Of a stretch of 64,000 nt of DNA, positions 15,482 to 22,633 are shown piece after piece. The stretch's first letter is position 1; every line of letters starts with the position of its first letter. The translations under genes were made by a program, and so were the position numbers. The notes beneath the pieces are model-generated. The model saw only the letters and a list, made by a program, of their open reading frames with translations, searched no databases and was not told the DNA's origin. The DNA is from Chloroflexota bacterium (GTDB taxonomy: Bacteria > Chloroflexota > Anaerolineae > Aggregatilineales > Phototrophicaceae), in assembly GCA_026707665.1 (NCBI GenBank), contig JAPOWK010000117.1, positions 16,901 to 80,900 of the forward strand, read 5' to 3'.

Positions 15482-16081
15482 CTAGACAGTTTGCCGATTT
15501 CGCTCGAGCCGGGCGCTGAGAGCCTTGGCGTCGATTTCGCCGCCGCCAGCGACGGTGCCGCGCAGCGCGAAGACAGCGCGCGGATCGTCGTAGAAGAGCG
15601 AGACGGTGACAGCTTGGCCGTAGATTCCGCTGAGTAGCTCAGTCATGATGGCGCGGGTATCAGCGAAAACTTCCGGAGTATTCCGATAGTGCATGCGATC
15701 GAGGAAGCTGATCTTGGCCGAGCCAAAATCGAATACGATATCGCCGGGCGCTTCCGCTTCCAGCGCGAGCGCGGCCGCCAGCGCGCCCCGGAAGACGAGA
15801 CGCAGCGCGTCACTCAGCTCGTCCGGCAAGTCTCGTTTGCGAATGTAGTATAAGCCGATCTCGCCATCCGTGAGGTCGTAGGCGAGATCCGCTTCATCAG
15901 CGATCAGCACGATGCCGGGTCCCTCGGGCACGTGTTTGTAATCGATGACGTCAATCAGCATGCCTTCTAGCGTGTGATCCTGAATCCAACGCTGGAAGAT
16001 TGGCAGGATGTCGTCGGGCGCCAAGGTCGGCTGCTGTTTCAGGTTGAATTTGAGGCCGAGGCGGCGTGGTACTGTTGTCAT
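15482..16081 (-). CDS. Conserved hypothetical protein (199 aa)
   Basis: Intact ORF, consistent codon bias, no recognised family. Confidence 0.55.
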   Translation of the reverse strand: MTTVPRRLGLKFNLKQQPTLAPDDILPIFQRWIQDHTLEGMLIDVIDYKHVPEGPGIVLIADEADLAYDLTDGEIGLYYIRKRDLPDELSDALRLVFRGALAAALALEAEAPGDIVFDFGSAKISFLDRMHYRNTPEVFADTRAIMTELLSGIYGQAVTVSLFYDDPRAVFALRGTVAGGGEIDAKALSARLERNRQTV

Positions 16082-16382: not shown

Positions 16383-18629
16383 CTAGCCTACAATCACGCC
16401 ATTGATGCGCTGTTCGGCTGTATGGACATTCTCGATGAAAAGCTGGGTTTCATCAATGATCTGATGAGCGTAGTCTTCGTTGATGCGCGTTGGCGTGCCT
16501 TCGTGCCGTTTGAACAGATAGCGGGCGAATTTGCCCTTGGCGAAGCGATCGTAAATCAATTCCGTGTCATAGAAGCGCGATCGGAATTCATCAACGATGG
16601 TGTCGTAGTCGTCGCCGACATCGAGATGTTTGGTGCGCACCAGCGCGCGCGCCGCCATGACCATCGCCTTATAGGCTTGCTCGTCCGCCAGCCGATAGTC
16701 GCCATCGTCCAGCGCCAGCAGCGCTTCGAATTGGGTCGATTCGGCTTTCGAGATTTCCATCGAAAAAAGCGAAACGACCTCGCCGGCGCATTCGCCGACG
16801 CCGATGTCATCAATGGTATAGACGCGCGAATCGCCCCAATCGCTGAAGTAGTCGGGACGTTCCTCAAAGCTGGGCAGCTTCATAAAGGGCTGCAGCATGG
16901 CTTTGATCTCTTTGCGGCCCAGAGCTTTGACCCAGGTTTGGAAGTTCTCGTCTTCGCCGCGTTCGGCGACATAGCGCTCGGTCAGCGCTTCAATGACATC
17001 GGGCACGCGCTTGGCCGGCACGGCGCCGACCGCCAAACCGTAGCTGCCGGCGTTCTGCTGCCATTGACCGCCGAGCACGACCTGGAAGTGCGGCAATTTG
17101 TGATTGCCGGAGCGGCGGCTGTTGCCGAAGAATCCGATATCGGCCACGTGATGCTGCCCGCAGGAGTTGAAGCAGCCGCTGACCTTGATCTTGAGCTCGC
17201 GCACGGGATCGGGCAGCAGGTTGATCTTTTCGATCAGACGCGTCCGCAGCTCGGCGGTCAAGCCGCGCGACGAGGCGATGCCGAGCTTGCAGGTGTCGGT
17301 GCCAGGGCAAGTCGTGATATCGACGATGGTCCCGGCGTTGGCATCGCCCAAGCCGATTTCGCAAAGATCGCGATAGATCGCCGGCAGATCGGAATCAGCC
17401 ACCCAGCGCAGGACGACATTCTGCTCAACCGAGAGACGTATGTTGTCGCCGACATAGCGGCGGGCGATATCGGCGAGTTGGAAACCTTGCAAGGCGGTGA
17501 AATCGCCGAGCGGCGTGTTCAGCGTGATGGTGCTGTAGCCGCTCTGCACCTGGCGGTAGACGTTGCTGCGATACCAGTCGTCGAAGCCCTCCGGCAGCGT
17601 CGCCCCGTTCAGCGCCATGCCCGCTTTGGCTGGCTCGTAGGTGAAATCGCTCAATGTCTCGATGTATGCCGTATGCCGGTCATCGTGCGGCACCGTTTTG
17701 AGTTCTTCTTCAACCTCGCGCCGAAACTCCTCAATGCCGAGCTTGGCGACCAGGAATTTGATGCGAGCACGGTTGCGATTCTTCTTCTCGCCAAGACGGG
17801 CGAAGACGCGCGCGACCGCTTGCGTCAGCGGCAGCAGCTCTTCTTCGGTGGCGAATTCCGCCAGCACCTTCGCCTGATGCGGCACTGTGCCCAGCCCACC
17901 ACCGACATACACGGTGAAGCCGCGGACGGTCTCGCCGTCGACTTCGCGCGATTGCGCCAGCAAGCCGAGGTCGTGCATCTTGACCAAGCCGCAGGCGTGA
18001 CCGGCGCAGCCCGAAAAGGCGACTTTGAATTTGCGGCCGAAGTCTTGCACATCATCGTGGTTGAGCAGGAAATGCGTCATGGCATCGGCGTAGGGGCTGA
18101 CATCAAAGACTTCATCATGGCAAACGCCGGCCAGCGTGCAAGCAGTGATGTTTCGTACCGAGTTGCCGCAGGCTTCCTGCGTGGTAATGCCGACAGCCGC
18201 CAGCCGCCGCATCAGGTCGGGCGTGTCGTCGATATGCACATAATGAAGCTGAATATCCTGGCGCGTGGTGATGTGCAGGATGCCGTCCGAATATTCGTCT
18301 GCCGTTTCCGAGAGCACTTCCAGCTGCTCGGCGGTCAATCCGCCATAAGGAATCTTGATGCGCTGCATGCCGGGCGCGTCCCAAAGGGTATCGGGACCCT
18401 TGACAACCTCGCCGGAGGGGTAAGCCAGATCACGGGTGCGCACGCCGTCATGTCTCTGTCCATTGTCGTAGCGCTGCCCATAGACGCCCTTACGAAGGCG
18501 CGCCTCGGCGAAGACTTTTTCGTCGAGCTTGCCTTGCTTGCGCAATTCCATTTGCGCTTCGTAAGTGTCGATAAGTTTGCCCCATTCCGCCGGGATCTCA
18601 TCCTTTAGAATCTCTTTCCAGGTCGTCAT
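16383..18629 (-). CDS. Ferredoxin-type nitrite/sulfite reductase with C-terminal helical (HEPN-like) extension
   Basis: Siroheme/4Fe-4S motifs TCPGTDTCKLGIASSRGL and KVSGCFNSCGQHHVADIGF; two-fold NIR/SIR repeat; about 110 aa extension after SRVYTIDDIGVGECAGEVV. Confidence 0.92.
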   Translation of the reverse strand: MTTWKEILKDEIPAEWGKLIDTYEAQMELRKQGKLDEKVFAEARLRKGVYGQRYDNGQRHDGVRTRDLAYPSGEVVKGPDTLWDAPGMQRIKIPYGGLTAEQLEVLSETADEYSDGILHITTRQDIQLHYVHIDDTPDLMRRLAAVGITTQEACGNSVRNITACTLAGVCHDEVFDVSPYADAMTHFLLNHDDVQDFGRKFKVAFSGCAGHACGLVKMHDLGLLAQSREVDGETVRGFTVYVGGGLGTVPHQAKVLAEFATEEELLPLTQAVARVFARLGEKKNRNRARIKFLVAKLGIEEFRREVEEELKTVPHDDRHTAYIETLSDFTYEPAKAGMALNGATLPEGFDDWYRSNVYRQVQSGYSTITLNTPLGDFTALQGFQLADIARRYVGDNIRLSVEQNVVLRWVADSDLPAIYRDLCEIGLGDANAGTIVDITTCPGTDTCKLGIASSRGLTAELRTRLIEKINLLPDPVRELKIKVSGCFNSCGQHHVADIGFFGNSRRSGNHKLPHFQVVLGGQWQQNAGSYGLAVGAVPAKRVPDVIEALTERYVAERGEDENFQTWVKALGRKEIKAMLQPFMKLPSFEERPDYFSDWGDSRVYTIDDIGVGECAGEVVSLFSMEISKAESTQFEALLALDDGDYRLADEQAYKAMVMAARALVRTKHLDVGDDYDTIVDEFRSRFYDTELIYDRFAKGKFARYLFKRHEGTPTRINEDYAHQIIDETQLFIENVHTAEQRINGVIVG

Positions 18630-18650
18630 GTCTGTTCCTTTCTCTGTTAC

Positions 18651-18693
18651 ACCCCATCCCCAGGCCCCTTCCCCAGCCAGCTAGGGAAGGGGA
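18651..18693. repeat. Hairpin repeat, family A, inside the cobA-SiR intergenic gap
   Basis: ACCCCATCCCCAGGCCCCTTCCCCAGCCAGCTAGGGAAGGGG. Confidence 0.8.
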
Positions 18694-18749
18694 GCGAAAT
18701 GCAGCGGACACAAGGTAAATTGCGTGGGCGGCGGTTTCTCCGCTCGCGT

Positions 18750-19529
18750 CTACAAAGCCATCAATACTTCTTTCTGCAACACGTCGAACCAGGCGACGCC
18801 CGCTTGACGCAGCCGCACGACATCGCCAACAACCGTGATTGCCGGCGGTTGAATGTGCTCTGCCCGCGCGATGCCCGCGATCGTGTCGAGCGTACCGATT
18901 CGTGTGCGCTGGCGCCGGGTTGCGCCCCATTCGATGACGGCGGCTGGCGTCTCGCCATCCAGGCCATGATTCTGCAATTGGCGCGTGATCTCGCAAAGCC
19001 GCATGACGCCCATCATGATGACGATGGTGCCGCCAATCTGCGCGAGTGCGGCGTAGTTGATGCTGCTCTCGGGTTTCGTCGGATCTTCATGTCCGGTAAT
19101 CACCGTGAATGAACTGCTGACGTGGCGGTGCGTCAAGGGAATGCCGGCGTATGCGGGAACCGCATTGACGCTCGATACGCCAGGTACAATCTCGAAGGGG
19201 ATGCCATGTTGGCGGCAAGCCAGCGCTTCCTCTCCGCCTCGGCCGAAGACGAGCGGGTCGCCCCCTTTGAGCCGGACGACATCGTAGCCTTGGAGCGCGC
19301 GGTCCAGCAAGATTGCGTTGATCTCTTCCTGCGCCAGGCGATGACGCTTTGGCTGTTTGCCCGCGTCAATCAGTTCGGCATCGGGGCGCGTCTCTTCCAG
19401 CAGTTCGAATGGTATCAGCCGATCGTAGACGACGACATCCGCGCGCCGCAAAAGTCGCAGACCCTTGACGGTAATCAAGTCACTATCGCCGGGACCAGCG
19501 CCGACCAGGTAGACCACCCCACTGCTCAT
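18750..19529 (-). CDS. cobA: Uroporphyrinogen-III C-methyltransferase
   Basis: VYLVGAGPGDSDLITVKGLRLLRRADVVVYDRL; VRLKGGDPLVFGRGGEEA. Confidence 0.95.
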   Translation of the reverse strand: MSSGVVYLVGAGPGDSDLITVKGLRLLRRADVVVYDRLIPFELLEETRPDAELIDAGKQPKRHRLAQEEINAILLDRALQGYDVVRLKGGDPLVFGRGGEEALACRQHGIPFEIVPGVSSVNAVPAYAGIPLTHRHVSSSFTVITGHEDPTKPESSINYAALAQIGGTIVIMMGVMRLCEITRQLQNHGLDGETPAAVIEWGATRRQRTRIGTLDTIAGIARAEHIQPPAITVVGDVVRLRQAGVAWFDVLQKEVLMAL

Positions 19530-20857
19530 GACGCGCGGCTCTCCAACTGTCTGGCGGTCGAAAGCCAAAGATTGCAGGCAGACCGACACGGCAAGGTCGC
19601 GCCTGCGTCGCCGGGGGACCACCAGGCCGGCTCCCGCACACAATTTCCGCAGATCTTGTCCAATGTCATTTCAATCACGTTCTGTGGCAGGCGGTGAATG
19701 TCTTTGAACATGCCGTTTTGCCGCAGCCCGATATCCTCCAATGATTCACTCTTTAGCGCGCCGCGCTTATTCGCCGCCCAGTCGGCGACCAGACCAGGAT
19801 AAATGGTTTCGATCACGGCATGCGCGTCTTGGGCAGCATCCAGGTCTACACGCCAGCCGGCAGGCAAATCCGCGCTTGTCACCAAGGGACGGAAGGGATT
19901 CTCGCGTATGAATGCCCGCAATTCCGCCGGCGCCGAGAGCGCGATGCCGTCTGTTTCATTGTCTCGATGCCAGGCGCGCTCTTCATTTACCATCACTTGG
20001 CCGAATTGTAGAATTTTCTCTGATTCCAGTGCTTGTAGCAAGACACGTCTTCCGGCGCGGGGGAAATGGCGCCAGTTGCCTGTGCTGTCCTTCCGCTGAA
20101 GCGGCAGGCCGGTTTCGCGCGCCAGATCGAGAATGAGCTGGCAAATTGACTCGTCGGCGCCGACCGGTTCGCTGTAGTAGACCGAGCGATCTCTGACCCG
20201 ATTGACCGAATCCAATTCCGCGATGCCGAGCGCGCGTGGAATATCTTGGCGAACGTGCGAGCCGTCAGCCACGAAGTAGGGCAGCGCTATGATATGAGGA
20301 GCGCTTGTGCGTTCGTAGAGGCTGGGAATGTCTGGCTCATCATCGAGATAGACATCGACCGCCTCGCCGAGCCAATTCAATTCGCGAATGCGCTCAGCCT
20401 GATGCCGCGCGGTGTCCCGGCTTTGACGGTTGCGGCTGGTGCCATGACCGATGATGGCGGCGGCGGTTTGTTCGGGCGCCAATTCGTATCGATCTACGAT
20501 GGCGCGCAGTTGCCGTTCAACGATTGACTTCAGCTGAGGATGTTCCCCGAGCGGTCGCGTCAACTGAATCCGCTTGCCAGCGCGTAGCGTAGAATCGCCC
20601 GCCAGGCCAAACTCGGTCGGGATCACTTCGCTGGTGAAGTAGCCGCGCGCCGTGAAGACCGGTACGATGACGACATCGTCCGCTTCGACCGTGTCCAGAA
20701 CTTGTGAGAAGGGCGGCGCTTCCTTCCAGAAGCAAGCGGTGATCTCGTCGGCGACGCCCCAGCGGCGCAAGCGGTCGACGGCGCTCCAGACGATGCCGGC
20801 TGTATTGGCGCTGACATGGGAGCCGTGCCCGGCCAGGATCAGAGCGACTCCGCTCAC
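19526..20857 (-). CDS. Sirohydrochlorin chelatase (CbiX-like) fused to DR2241-type Fe-S domain
   Basis: VALILAGHGSH and AAAIIGHGTSRN CbiX repeats; C-terminal CGNCVREPAWWSPGDAGATLPCRSACNLW cysteine cluster; 4-nt overlaps with both neighbours. Confidence 0.85.
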   Translation of the reverse strand: MSGVALILAGHGSHVSANTAGIVWSAVDRLRRWGVADEITACFWKEAPPFSQVLDTVEADDVVIVPVFTARGYFTSEVIPTEFGLAGDSTLRAGKRIQLTRPLGEHPQLKSIVERQLRAIVDRYELAPEQTAAAIIGHGTSRNRQSRDTARHQAERIRELNWLGEAVDVYLDDEPDIPSLYERTSAPHIIALPYFVADGSHVRQDIPRALGIAELDSVNRVRDRSVYYSEPVGADESICQLILDLARETGLPLQRKDSTGNWRHFPRAGRRVLLQALESEKILQFGQVMVNEERAWHRDNETDGIALSAPAELRAFIRENPFRPLVTSADLPAGWRVDLDAAQDAHAVIETIYPGLVADWAANKRGALKSESLEDIGLRQNGMFKDIHRLPQNVIEMTLDKICGNCVREPAWWSPGDAGATLPCRSACNLWLSTARQLESRAS

Positions 20858-21504
20858 TCGGCTATTCCCTTCTGCACGATCTGCTGAAAGACAGAGCGCG
20901 CTTGCTCGGGCTTGCCGTCGCGAAGGAGGGCGAGCACATCCGAATTCAAGACATCTTGGTAAAGCGCTTGGCGAGCAGGCTGCGAGCCATTTACTTCCTG
21001 CGCGCACTCACGATAGGCGCCCAGCCAATCGGCGAGTATGGCGTATTCTTCACCGATGTCCTCAGCCAGCTTGGCTTTGAGCGCTCGCAGCAGAGCCGGC
21101 GATTTGCCGCCCGTGCTCAACGCGACAGTGAGCGGCGGCTTGTTAATCTGCGCCATGTTGCTAAAGTCGCTGTCCATGCTGCTGCCGTTCGCTACATTGC
21201 AGAGGGCGCGGATGCGATGCGCGTCTTGGGCAACTGTCTGATTGACGCGCTCGTCATCGGTCGCGGCGATGACCAGGACGGGCATGTAGTCGTTGAACAT
21301 GTCGCGCTGATATTTGGATTGGATCCAGACGAACGCGCCCTGGTCCAAGATTTCGCGCATAGCTGGCGCAATCTCCGGGCTGATCAGAAAAACGCGCGCG
21401 CCCGCTTGCAGCAGTCGCTCGACCTTGCGCGCCGCGACCCGCCCGCCGCCCACAACGGCGACCGGCTTGTCTTGCAAGTGCAGCATGATTGGATAGCCGC
21501 TCAT
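20854..21504 (-). CDS. Precorrin-2 dehydrogenase / sirohydrochlorin ferrochelatase (Met8p/SirC/CysG N-terminal type)
   Basis: PIMLHLQDKPVAVVGGGRVAARKVERLLQAGARVFLISPEI; start MSGYPIML at 21504, not the ORF-track start. Confidence 0.92.
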   Translation of the reverse strand: MSGYPIMLHLQDKPVAVVGGGRVAARKVERLLQAGARVFLISPEIAPAMREILDQGAFVWIQSKYQRDMFNDYMPVLVIAATDDERVNQTVAQDAHRIRALCNVANGSSMDSDFSNMAQINKPPLTVALSTGGKSPALLRALKAKLAEDIGEEYAILADWLGAYRECAQEVNGSQPARQALYQDVLNSDVLALLRDGKPEQARSVFQQIVQKGIAE

Positions 21505-21508
21505 TGAT

Positions 21509-22228
21509 TTATGCCTCGACGCTGCGTGCCGCGAGTGAAGGCAGCGGCAAGTGAATGCCACACTCGATCTTGCCCTGGTTCGCCCAGCGGCCGCTGCGGA
21601 GATGGTCGTCTTCGCCCGCGGCTTTGGTGCAGGTCCAGCAACCGATGCTGGGATAGCCAATATCGTGCAGGCGGTTGTAGGGCAGGTCGTGCTCATGAAT
21701 GTATTGCCAGACAGCTTCCTCGGTCCAGTTGGCGAAGGGCGCGATTTTGATGGATCGGTTGCGCGCGTCGCGGCTGATGATTGGCGTGGCAGCGCGCTGC
21801 GAAGACTGATCGCGGCGCACGCCAGTGACCCAGGCGTCAAAACCGACGAGGGCGTCGCGCAAGGGAATGGTCTTGCGGATATGGCAGCAGCGATCGGGGT
21901 TGCGCTCCCATAGGCGATCGCCATAGTCGCGGGCTTGCTGCGCCGGCGTCTGACGCGGTTTGATGCGCCGCAGATCAAGATTGAAGCGCGCTTCCAGATT
22001 GTCCATCAGGTCCTGCGTCTCGGGGAAGAGCAAGCCCGTATCCAGCGTCAGCACGGGCGTACGCGGCGCGATGCGCTGCATCATGTGCAGGGTCGCGATG
22101 CCGGTCACCTGAAAGCTGGTAACGATGGCGAGTTTGTCGCCGAATGAATCGCTCGCCCAGGTCAGAATCTCGAATGGGCTGGCTGTTTCAAATTGCTCGG
22201 CGTGTGACTGAATCTGTGAGTTTAGCAT
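21509..22228 (-). CDS. cysH: Assimilatory adenylyl-sulfate (APS) reductase, Fe-S type
   Basis: CCHIRKTIPL, GCWTCTKAAGEDDHLRSGRWANQGKIECGIH (CC...CxxC plus catalytic ECGIH). Confidence 0.93.
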   Translation of the reverse strand: MLNSQIQSHAEQFETASPFEILTWASDSFGDKLAIVTSFQVTGIATLHMMQRIAPRTPVLTLDTGLLFPETQDLMDNLEARFNLDLRRIKPRQTPAQQARDYGDRLWERNPDRCCHIRKTIPLRDALVGFDAWVTGVRRDQSSQRAATPIISRDARNRSIKIAPFANWTEEAVWQYIHEHDLPYNRLHDIGYPSIGCWTCTKAAGEDDHLRSGRWANQGKIECGIHLPLPSLAARSVEA

Positions 22229-22264: not shown

Positions 22265-22292
22265 AAAAAGCGCCTCGGATTATCCGAAGCGC
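22265..22292 (-). terminator. Intrinsic terminator/attenuator 1 (proximal to cysH)
   Basis: Minus strand GCGCTTCGGATAATCCGAGGCGCTTTTT: 11-bp stem (one G-U) plus T5, between leader ORF 1 and cysH. Confidence 0.9.
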
Positions 22293-22311
22293 CCCTGAGA
22301 TTCCTGAACGT

Positions 22312-22407
22312 TCACCGGCTACATCGCTGCGCCGGCCGCGGATAACCCTGCCGAATCGGCACGGTACAACAACAGTCCGGACAACAGCACATCATTTTTG
22401 CGATCAT
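22312..22407 (-). CDS. Cysteine-rich leader peptide 1: MIAKMMCCCPDCCCTVPIRQGYPRPAQRCSR
   Basis: ATG with GAGG 7 nt upstream (GAAGAGGAACTAGAATG); 7 Cys in 31 codons, CCCPDCCC; followed by terminator. Confidence 0.85.
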   Translation of the reverse strand: MIAKMMCCCPDCCCTVPIRQGYPRPAQRCSR

Positions 22408-22434
22408 TCTAGTTCCTCTTCAGCGCGCTACAAT

Positions 22435-22460
22435 AAAAAAGCCCCGTGTCGTCACGGGGC
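22435..22460 (-). terminator. Intrinsic terminator/attenuator 2 (distal)
   Basis: Minus strand GCCCCGTGACGACACGGGGCTTTTTT: perfect 8-bp stem, 4-nt loop, T6. Confidence 0.93.
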
Positions 22461-22494
22461 ATCTCGATTCTGCTTGCTGCGCGTCAATCACGAT

Positions 22495-22587
22495 CTAGCA
22501 AAGCGCCACCGTACGACTCTCGGTCGAACCTGTCTGACAACAACACGGACAGCAGCACAAGCAAGTCACAAATGAAATCTTACTCAT
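22495..22587 (-). CDS. Cysteine-rich leader peptide 2: MSKISFVTCLCCCPCCCQTGSTESRTVALC
   Basis: ATG start about 10 nt after predicted TSS; 8 Cys in 30 codons, CLCCCPCCC; followed by terminator. Confidence 0.85.
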   Translation of the reverse strand: MSKISFVTCLCCCPCCCQTGSTESRTVALC

Positions 22588-22604: not shown

Positions 22605-22633
22605 AGCTTAGCGCAAACTTCAATATCTGTCAA
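22605..22633 (-). promoter_or_regulatory. Sigma70-like promoter of the cys leader/operon
   Basis: Minus strand TTGACA (22633-22628), 17-nt spacer, TAAGCT (22610-22605). Confidence 0.75.

Follow-up and report, generated by a model that had tools for sequence, protein, structure and literature searches.

Ribosome-mediated attenuators of the trp, his and leu type have a leader ORF whose codons call for what the operon itself makes, then an antiterminator/terminator alternative, with an intrinsic terminator ahead of the first gene. Most descriptions of leader-peptide attenuation concern Proteobacteria, Actinobacteria and some Firmicutes (PMC2965389, PMC1262725). For cysteine, poly-Cys leaders of cys operons have been reported in Actinobacteria including Mycobacterium, without an obvious terminator (Seliverstov 2005, PMC1262725), and the mycobacterial poly-Cys ORFs studied by Canestrari 2020 are leaderless and their control is described as translational, at least in the summaries given by later papers (PMC9094748, PMC13236596). 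In Rhodobacterales, uORFC-8-2 before cysS has been predicted to act by Cys-codon ribosome-mediated transcription attenuation with an intrinsic terminator (PMC8632094), and tandem attenuators sensing different signals, ATP and proline, are known from Salmonella mgtCBR (PMC3641672).

The locus examined here lies on the minus strand of a 64,000-nt stretch of Chloroflexota DNA (the window), where a promoter, a distal leader, a terminator, a proximal leader and a second terminator precede, in this order, an operon for assimilatory sulfate reduction with its own siroheme supply, which makes sulfide for cysteine. It shares the three hallmarks of the trp, his and leu attenuators but differs from them in the amino acid, cysteine, in its occurrence in Chloroflexota and in the doubling of the whole unit; as in the trp and his type, ORFs rich in the relevant codon stand before the biosynthetic operon and the position of the ribosome on the control codons sets the predicted fold. 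With the actinobacterial leaders it has in common a short Cys-run ORF before cysteine-biosynthesis genes, whereas here the leaders are in tandem, antiterminators are present and a terminator follows each leader. In contrast to the mycobacterial leaderless ORFs, the proximal ORF starts nearly 200 nt inside the predicted transcript and has its own AGGA; the predicted start site leaves the distal ORF a 5' leader of approximately 10-30 nt, and a non-leaderless status is clear for the proximal ORF only. The rhodobacterial uORFC-8-2 differs in having two Cys codons in a single leader, before an aminoacyl-tRNA synthetase gene of alphaproteobacteria, and mgtCBR, whose leader mRNA likewise has two ORFs one after the other, differs in that both leaders here have runs of Cys codons. 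Searches of a library of open-licence papers yielded no attenuator from Chloroflexota, none that precedes cysH and none with a pair of leaders for the same amino acid, and the tandem cysH form in Chloroflexota appears to be new.

We consider it very probable that the region is a tandem, same-signal, ribosome-mediated transcription attenuator responding to shortage of Cys-tRNA. Its parts, from promoter to operon, are as follows.

22605..22633, minus strand: promoter read from the sequence, TTGACA (22633-22628), a 17-nt spacer and TAAGCT (22610-22605)
22495..22587, minus strand: distal leader ORF, MSKISFVTCLCCCPCCCQTGSTESRTVALC followed by a stop codon, starting at ATG 22587 or possibly GTG 22569
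22537..22563, minus strand: distal control codons, TGC TTG TGC TGC TGT CCG TGT TGT TGT
22505..22517, minus strand: leader strand of the distal antiterminator, GUCGUACGGUGGC, pairing with 22460-22448
22435..22460, minus strand: distal intrinsic terminator, GCCCCGUGACGACACGGGGC-UUUUUU (DNA GCCCCGTGACGACACGGGGC-TTTTTT)
22312..22407, minus strand: proximal leader ORF, MIAKMMCCCPDCCCTVPIRQGYPRPAQRCSR followed by a stop codon, with AGGA upstream of its ATG and homologues in 33 loci of the genus
22366..22389, minus strand: proximal control codons, Cys codons 7-9 (22389-22381) and 12-14 (22374-22366)
22345..22365, minus strand: post-Cys hairpin UGCCGAUUCGGCA with outer ACC/GGU, directly after the Cys codons (RNAalifold)
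22335..22348, minus strand: leader strand of the proximal antiterminator (region 2), identified by pairing, covariation, swaps and folding
22314..22336, minus strand: conserved hairpin around the proximal stop codon, with 95% of cells paired (RNAalifold)
22277..22290, minus strand: region 3, the partner of region 2, reaching from the terminator's 5' arm across its loop into its 3' arm
22265..22292, minus strand: proximal intrinsic terminator GCGCUUCGGAUAAUCCGAGGCGC-UUUUU, stem 22292-22270 and U-tract 22269-22265
21509..22228, minus strand: cysH, (P)APS reductase, the first structural gene (NCBIfam NF002537, 260 bits)
16383..21507, minus strand: rest of the sulfate-assimilation operon, with precorrin-2 dehydrogenase, CbiX-type chelatase, uroporphyrinogen-III methyltransferase and sulfite/nitrite reductase

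Computation established these elements and how far they are conserved, and likewise that the pairings exclude one another and depend on the position of the ribosome. A consensus promoter scan missed 22633-22605 because of its weak -10 box; a TTGACA/G-17-TANNNT pattern recurs at this position, ahead of the distal leader, in 30 of 32 related loci. The distal terminator was the sole terminator-like site in this part of the sequence to pass the scan and is present in all 32 aligned loci, and the proximal terminator has 97% of its cells paired across 33 loci. An Rfam scan of the window gave no family at gathering score. A 199-aa ORF (15482-16081) that follows the sulfite reductase on the same strand had no NCBIfam or Pfam match and is a possible further member of the operon.

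The initial annotation of this DNA had proposed that, in the proximal leader RNA, GGGUUAUCCG (DNA GGGTTATCCG, 22348-22339, minus strand) pairs over 10 bp, one of them G-U, with CGGAUAAUCC (DNA CGGATAATCC, 22286-22277, minus strand), part of the proximal terminator. This segment covers the upper portion of the terminator's 5' arm, its loop and the first bases of its 3' arm. Positions, base pairs and the overlap with the terminator were all borne out, and the pairing is confirmed as real; only the spacing had been misjudged, since 17 nt and not about 30 nt lie between the last Cys codon (22368-22366) and the segment. Beyond the 10 bp, a C.U mismatch is followed by three further pairs (22337-22335 with 22290-22288), giving 13 pairs in total and a duplex energy of -19.1 kcal/mol for the window sequence, and in many relatives the antiterminator consists of 14 contiguous pairs. 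The accompanying argument was that such a match is unlikely for an ordinary terminator. When the leader was dinucleotide-shuffled 20,000 times and paired against the terminator arm, 53 shuffles (approximately 0.3%) did equally well, a figure that on its own is only suggestive, so that the comparative evidence decides. Other terminators of the window were uninformative as a comparison set because few were found.

For the comparison, 34 genomes of the genus were searched; 33 of them had a cysH match, giving 34 loci. The relatives are named as uncultured Chloroflexi, Chloroflexota and Anaerolineae bacteria, and several of their bins presumably come from marine sponges. Leaders were present in 33 of the 34 cysH loci, with the homologous Cys-rich distal ORF lying at about -340 of cysH in 33 loci, and the predicted tandem layout, from promoter to operon, is found throughout the genus. 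The exception, L064, is the second cysH copy of one genome (G033) and has no leaders at all. Several relatives have an in-frame start of the distal leader that aligns with GTG 22569.

The proximal antiterminator was 97% paired as 10 bp and 96% paired as 14 bp across 33 aligned leaders, with compensatory changes at three pairs and a covariation score above those of all 500 shuffles and all slid registers. The shuffles ignore relatedness, and the single covariation events were therefore inspected. In L005, a leader A to G change accompanies a U to C change in the terminator loop (A-U to G-C); in L029, L030, L031 and L061, leader G to C accompanies partner U to G (G-U to C-G), which breaks one terminator pair; and in L021 an outer G-C pair of the antiterminator has become A-U. 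Compensatory changes in the antiterminator are thus seen in at least three lineages. The changes in L005 and in the group of four cannot be explained by selection acting through the terminator, since in the former the changed base sits in the terminator loop and in the latter the change disrupts a terminator pair. When leaders and terminators were exchanged between species, swapped partners paired worse, with none of 10,000 permutations as good as the native combination for the proximal leader and 5 of 10,000 for the distal one. The distal antiterminator, with 12 pairs, two bulges and a duplex energy of -18.4 kcal/mol, had 88% of its cells paired in 32 loci, among which no column covariation was seen. 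The post-Cys hairpin (22345..22365) showed 22 cells with compensatory changes and a score of 0.257 against 0.097 in shuffles.

The influence of the ribosome was modelled by folding the RNA to the end of region 3, that is, before completion of the terminator, with a 30-nt ribosome footprint held single-stranded. In the window sequence, the probability of the proximal antiterminator was 0.94 with Cys12, Cys13 or Cys14 in the A site and approximately 0.7 at Cys7-9; it was 0.00 when the ribosome sat on the segment itself, 0.15 when it had reached the stop codon and 0.01 without a ribosome. The proximal leader had genus means of 0.53 (no ribosome), 0.84 (stalled), 0.02 (seven codons on) and 0.64 (stop); the corresponding values of the distal leader were 0.32, 0.75, 0.01 and 0.04. 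In these models the contrast between a stalled and a moving ribosome is robust in both leaders, and the distal leader is predicted to act like a textbook attenuator. With a proximal no-ribosome mean of 0.53, the models do not make the off state the default in all species. The proximal stop codon lies approximately 54 nt beyond the last Cys codon, and a ribosome that has reached it leaves the segment uncovered, so that repression at this point would depend on timing or on steric hindrance. Such a ribosome would fill approximately 30 of the 44 nt between the two antiterminator strands, and hindrance of the pairing is plausible.

Two further claims of the initial annotation, that terminator and antiterminator exclude each other and that a ribosome stalled on the Cys codons would free the antiterminator, were supported. 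Mutual exclusion follows from the overlap and covariation in the proximal leader and is indicated by conservation and swaps only in the distal one; covariation, species-specific matching and masked folding all point to release by a stalled ribosome. It had also been envisaged that the local hairpin UGCCGAUUCGGCA might outcompete the 10-bp pairing. This was not borne out: the hairpin does exist and has been conserved, but its core can form together with the antiterminator, both having a probability of 0.94 with Cys12 in the A site, and it may possibly serve as a polymerase pause hairpin. In the full-length RNA at equilibrium, wherever the ribosome is placed, the terminator is favoured by 5-10 kcal/mol, and the switch must therefore be kinetic. 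Other attenuators are likewise kinetic in mechanism.

Under the attenuator reading, one promoter would give rise to two successive leader RNAs, each with a short Cys-run ORF (mostly UGU), an intrinsic terminator and, within the ORF, a segment that can pair with this terminator. When Cys-tRNA is ample, the translating ribosome would pass the Cys codons and cover the antiterminator segment while the terminator is being synthesized, and transcription would stop; when it is scarce, the ribosome would stall on the Cys codons, and the free segment would pair with the 5' arm and loop of the terminator and allow readthrough. The operon would be expressed only when both terminators are passed. We lean, by a modest degree, towards the wider reading that two serial attenuators for the same signal form a multiplicative, low-leak Cys-tRNA sensor, that sulfate assimilation in this lineage of Chloroflexota is mainly controlled by it, and that cysH is preceded by independent poly-Cys leaders in further families of the class. 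Because one amino acid is sensed twice, the system lends itself to testing what stacking does to leak and sensitivity, single attenuators having already been modelled (PMC1183508), and the leader signature allows cysteine control to be recognised in bacteria that have not been cultured.

The control codons themselves are biased. The 33 proximal homologues contain 130 TGT and 39 TGC codons, with a mean of 5.1 Cys in the last 12 codons, and the distal leaders of the genus contain 119 TGT and 42 TGC (74% TGT), whereas TGT is the rarer Cys codon in ten genes of the window (5 TGT and 33 TGC, or 13% TGT); for the window's own leaders the enrichment in TGT gave a Fisher p of 2.6e-4. The distal TGTTGTTGT is almost invariant in the genus alignment. 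The same holds, within 22366-22563, for the run of TGT triplets touching the first hairpin, which is among the best-conserved parts. In attenuator modelling, sensitivity depends on the choice of synonymous codons and on the fraction of control codons (PMC1183508), and UGU may be read more slowly in this bacterium.

Other explanations can be weighed against this evidence. Since intrinsic terminators commonly sit between genes and an SDR gene terminates upstream on the same strand, the two hairpins might be ordinary terminators of that gene, with a separate cysH promoter and incidental small ORFs; this is extremely unlikely, as both terminators lie downstream of the conserved promoter, L006 and L011 differ in upstream sequence yet keep the same leader unit, and Cys codons, antiterminator and terminator are retained together in 33 loci. 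The Cys-rich peptides might instead be functional small proteins (for example thiol- or metal-binding) with a trans-regulatory or other role and the RNA pairing secondary, and their C-terminal QGYPxLAQRCSR and CCCQTxSTESR do look conserved. However, these residues coincide with RNA helices, and the third codon positions of GGT-TAT-CCG are 93-100% fixed, so that the peptide motif GYP reflects an RNA constraint; moreover, the leader strand changes in step with the terminator, and in some relatives a stop at +39 or +42 cuts the peptide short, with the pairing kept. Such a role for the peptides is accordingly given only a very slight probability.

Control might also be exerted by translational or Rho-dependent attenuation in place of intrinsic termination, as proposed or described for mycobacterial poly-Cys uORFs, where the same codons and pathway are known (PMC1262725, PMC13236596), and in six relatives the U-tract is interrupted right after the stem (for example UCGUUGCUU). 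Together with the state of the proximal leader at its stop codon, these interruptions are also a weakness of the attenuator reading. Against this, both leaders end in strong hairpins with U-tracts, it is the terminator that the covarying antiterminator pairs with, and the ribosome-binding site of cysH (GGAG, 22237-22234) lies downstream of the proximal terminator, outside the switching helices, and we regard this possibility as improbable. That only one leader is an active sensor and the other a relic or a fixed-strength terminator is doubtful, though the distal antiterminator is bulged and shows no column covariation and the proximal leader is not closed at its stop codon; both leaders keep their Cys runs, terminators and leader-terminator complementarity genus-wide, and tandem Cys-rich ORFs also occur in other genera (L067 and L120 of the same family and L134 of another). 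The tandem attenuator remains the reading that we prefer.

Outside the genus, a short ORF having four Cys in a span of eight residues was found upstream of cysH in 7 of 51 loci of the same class, against 0 of 51 in a reverse-strand control and 0-1 for the other amino acids tested on the forward strand. Pairing of a leader segment with a downstream element was far above shuffles for the distal leader of L067 and for L128 (0 of 3,000 each); for L071, L121 and the L067 proximal leader, leader-terminator pairing was no better than in shuffles, and no more than a Cys-rich ORF is therefore credited to each of them. A search with a covariance model built on the proximal leader gave one strong match in its own genome and strong matches elsewhere only in the genus. 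Five weak matches elsewhere (E 0.004-0.008) revealed no convincing poly-Cys leader and were treated as chance. A loose poly-Cys DNA pattern run over 399 genomes of the phylum returned mostly unrelated or low-complexity matches, and control matches were also frequent.

The Cys-rich ORFs of these more distant loci vary in form. The tandem short ORFs of L134 read CCCQVCCCC and QCCCAVFT, with no clear terminator between them and cysH. L131 and L133 have Cys-rich ORFs upstream of cysH that end in CCC and a stop codon (..TTSSCCC), without an obvious terminator, and the location of their Cys codons near the stop is reminiscent of the actinobacterial arrangement. In L128 and L129 (family f16), a Cys-containing leader (MIQ..MCVCMC..) precedes cysH; there CGGGAAGGACCGU forms a long pairing with ACGGUCUUUCCCG, and another segment is complementary to the terminator, an arrangement that suggests a putative relay of alternative helices.
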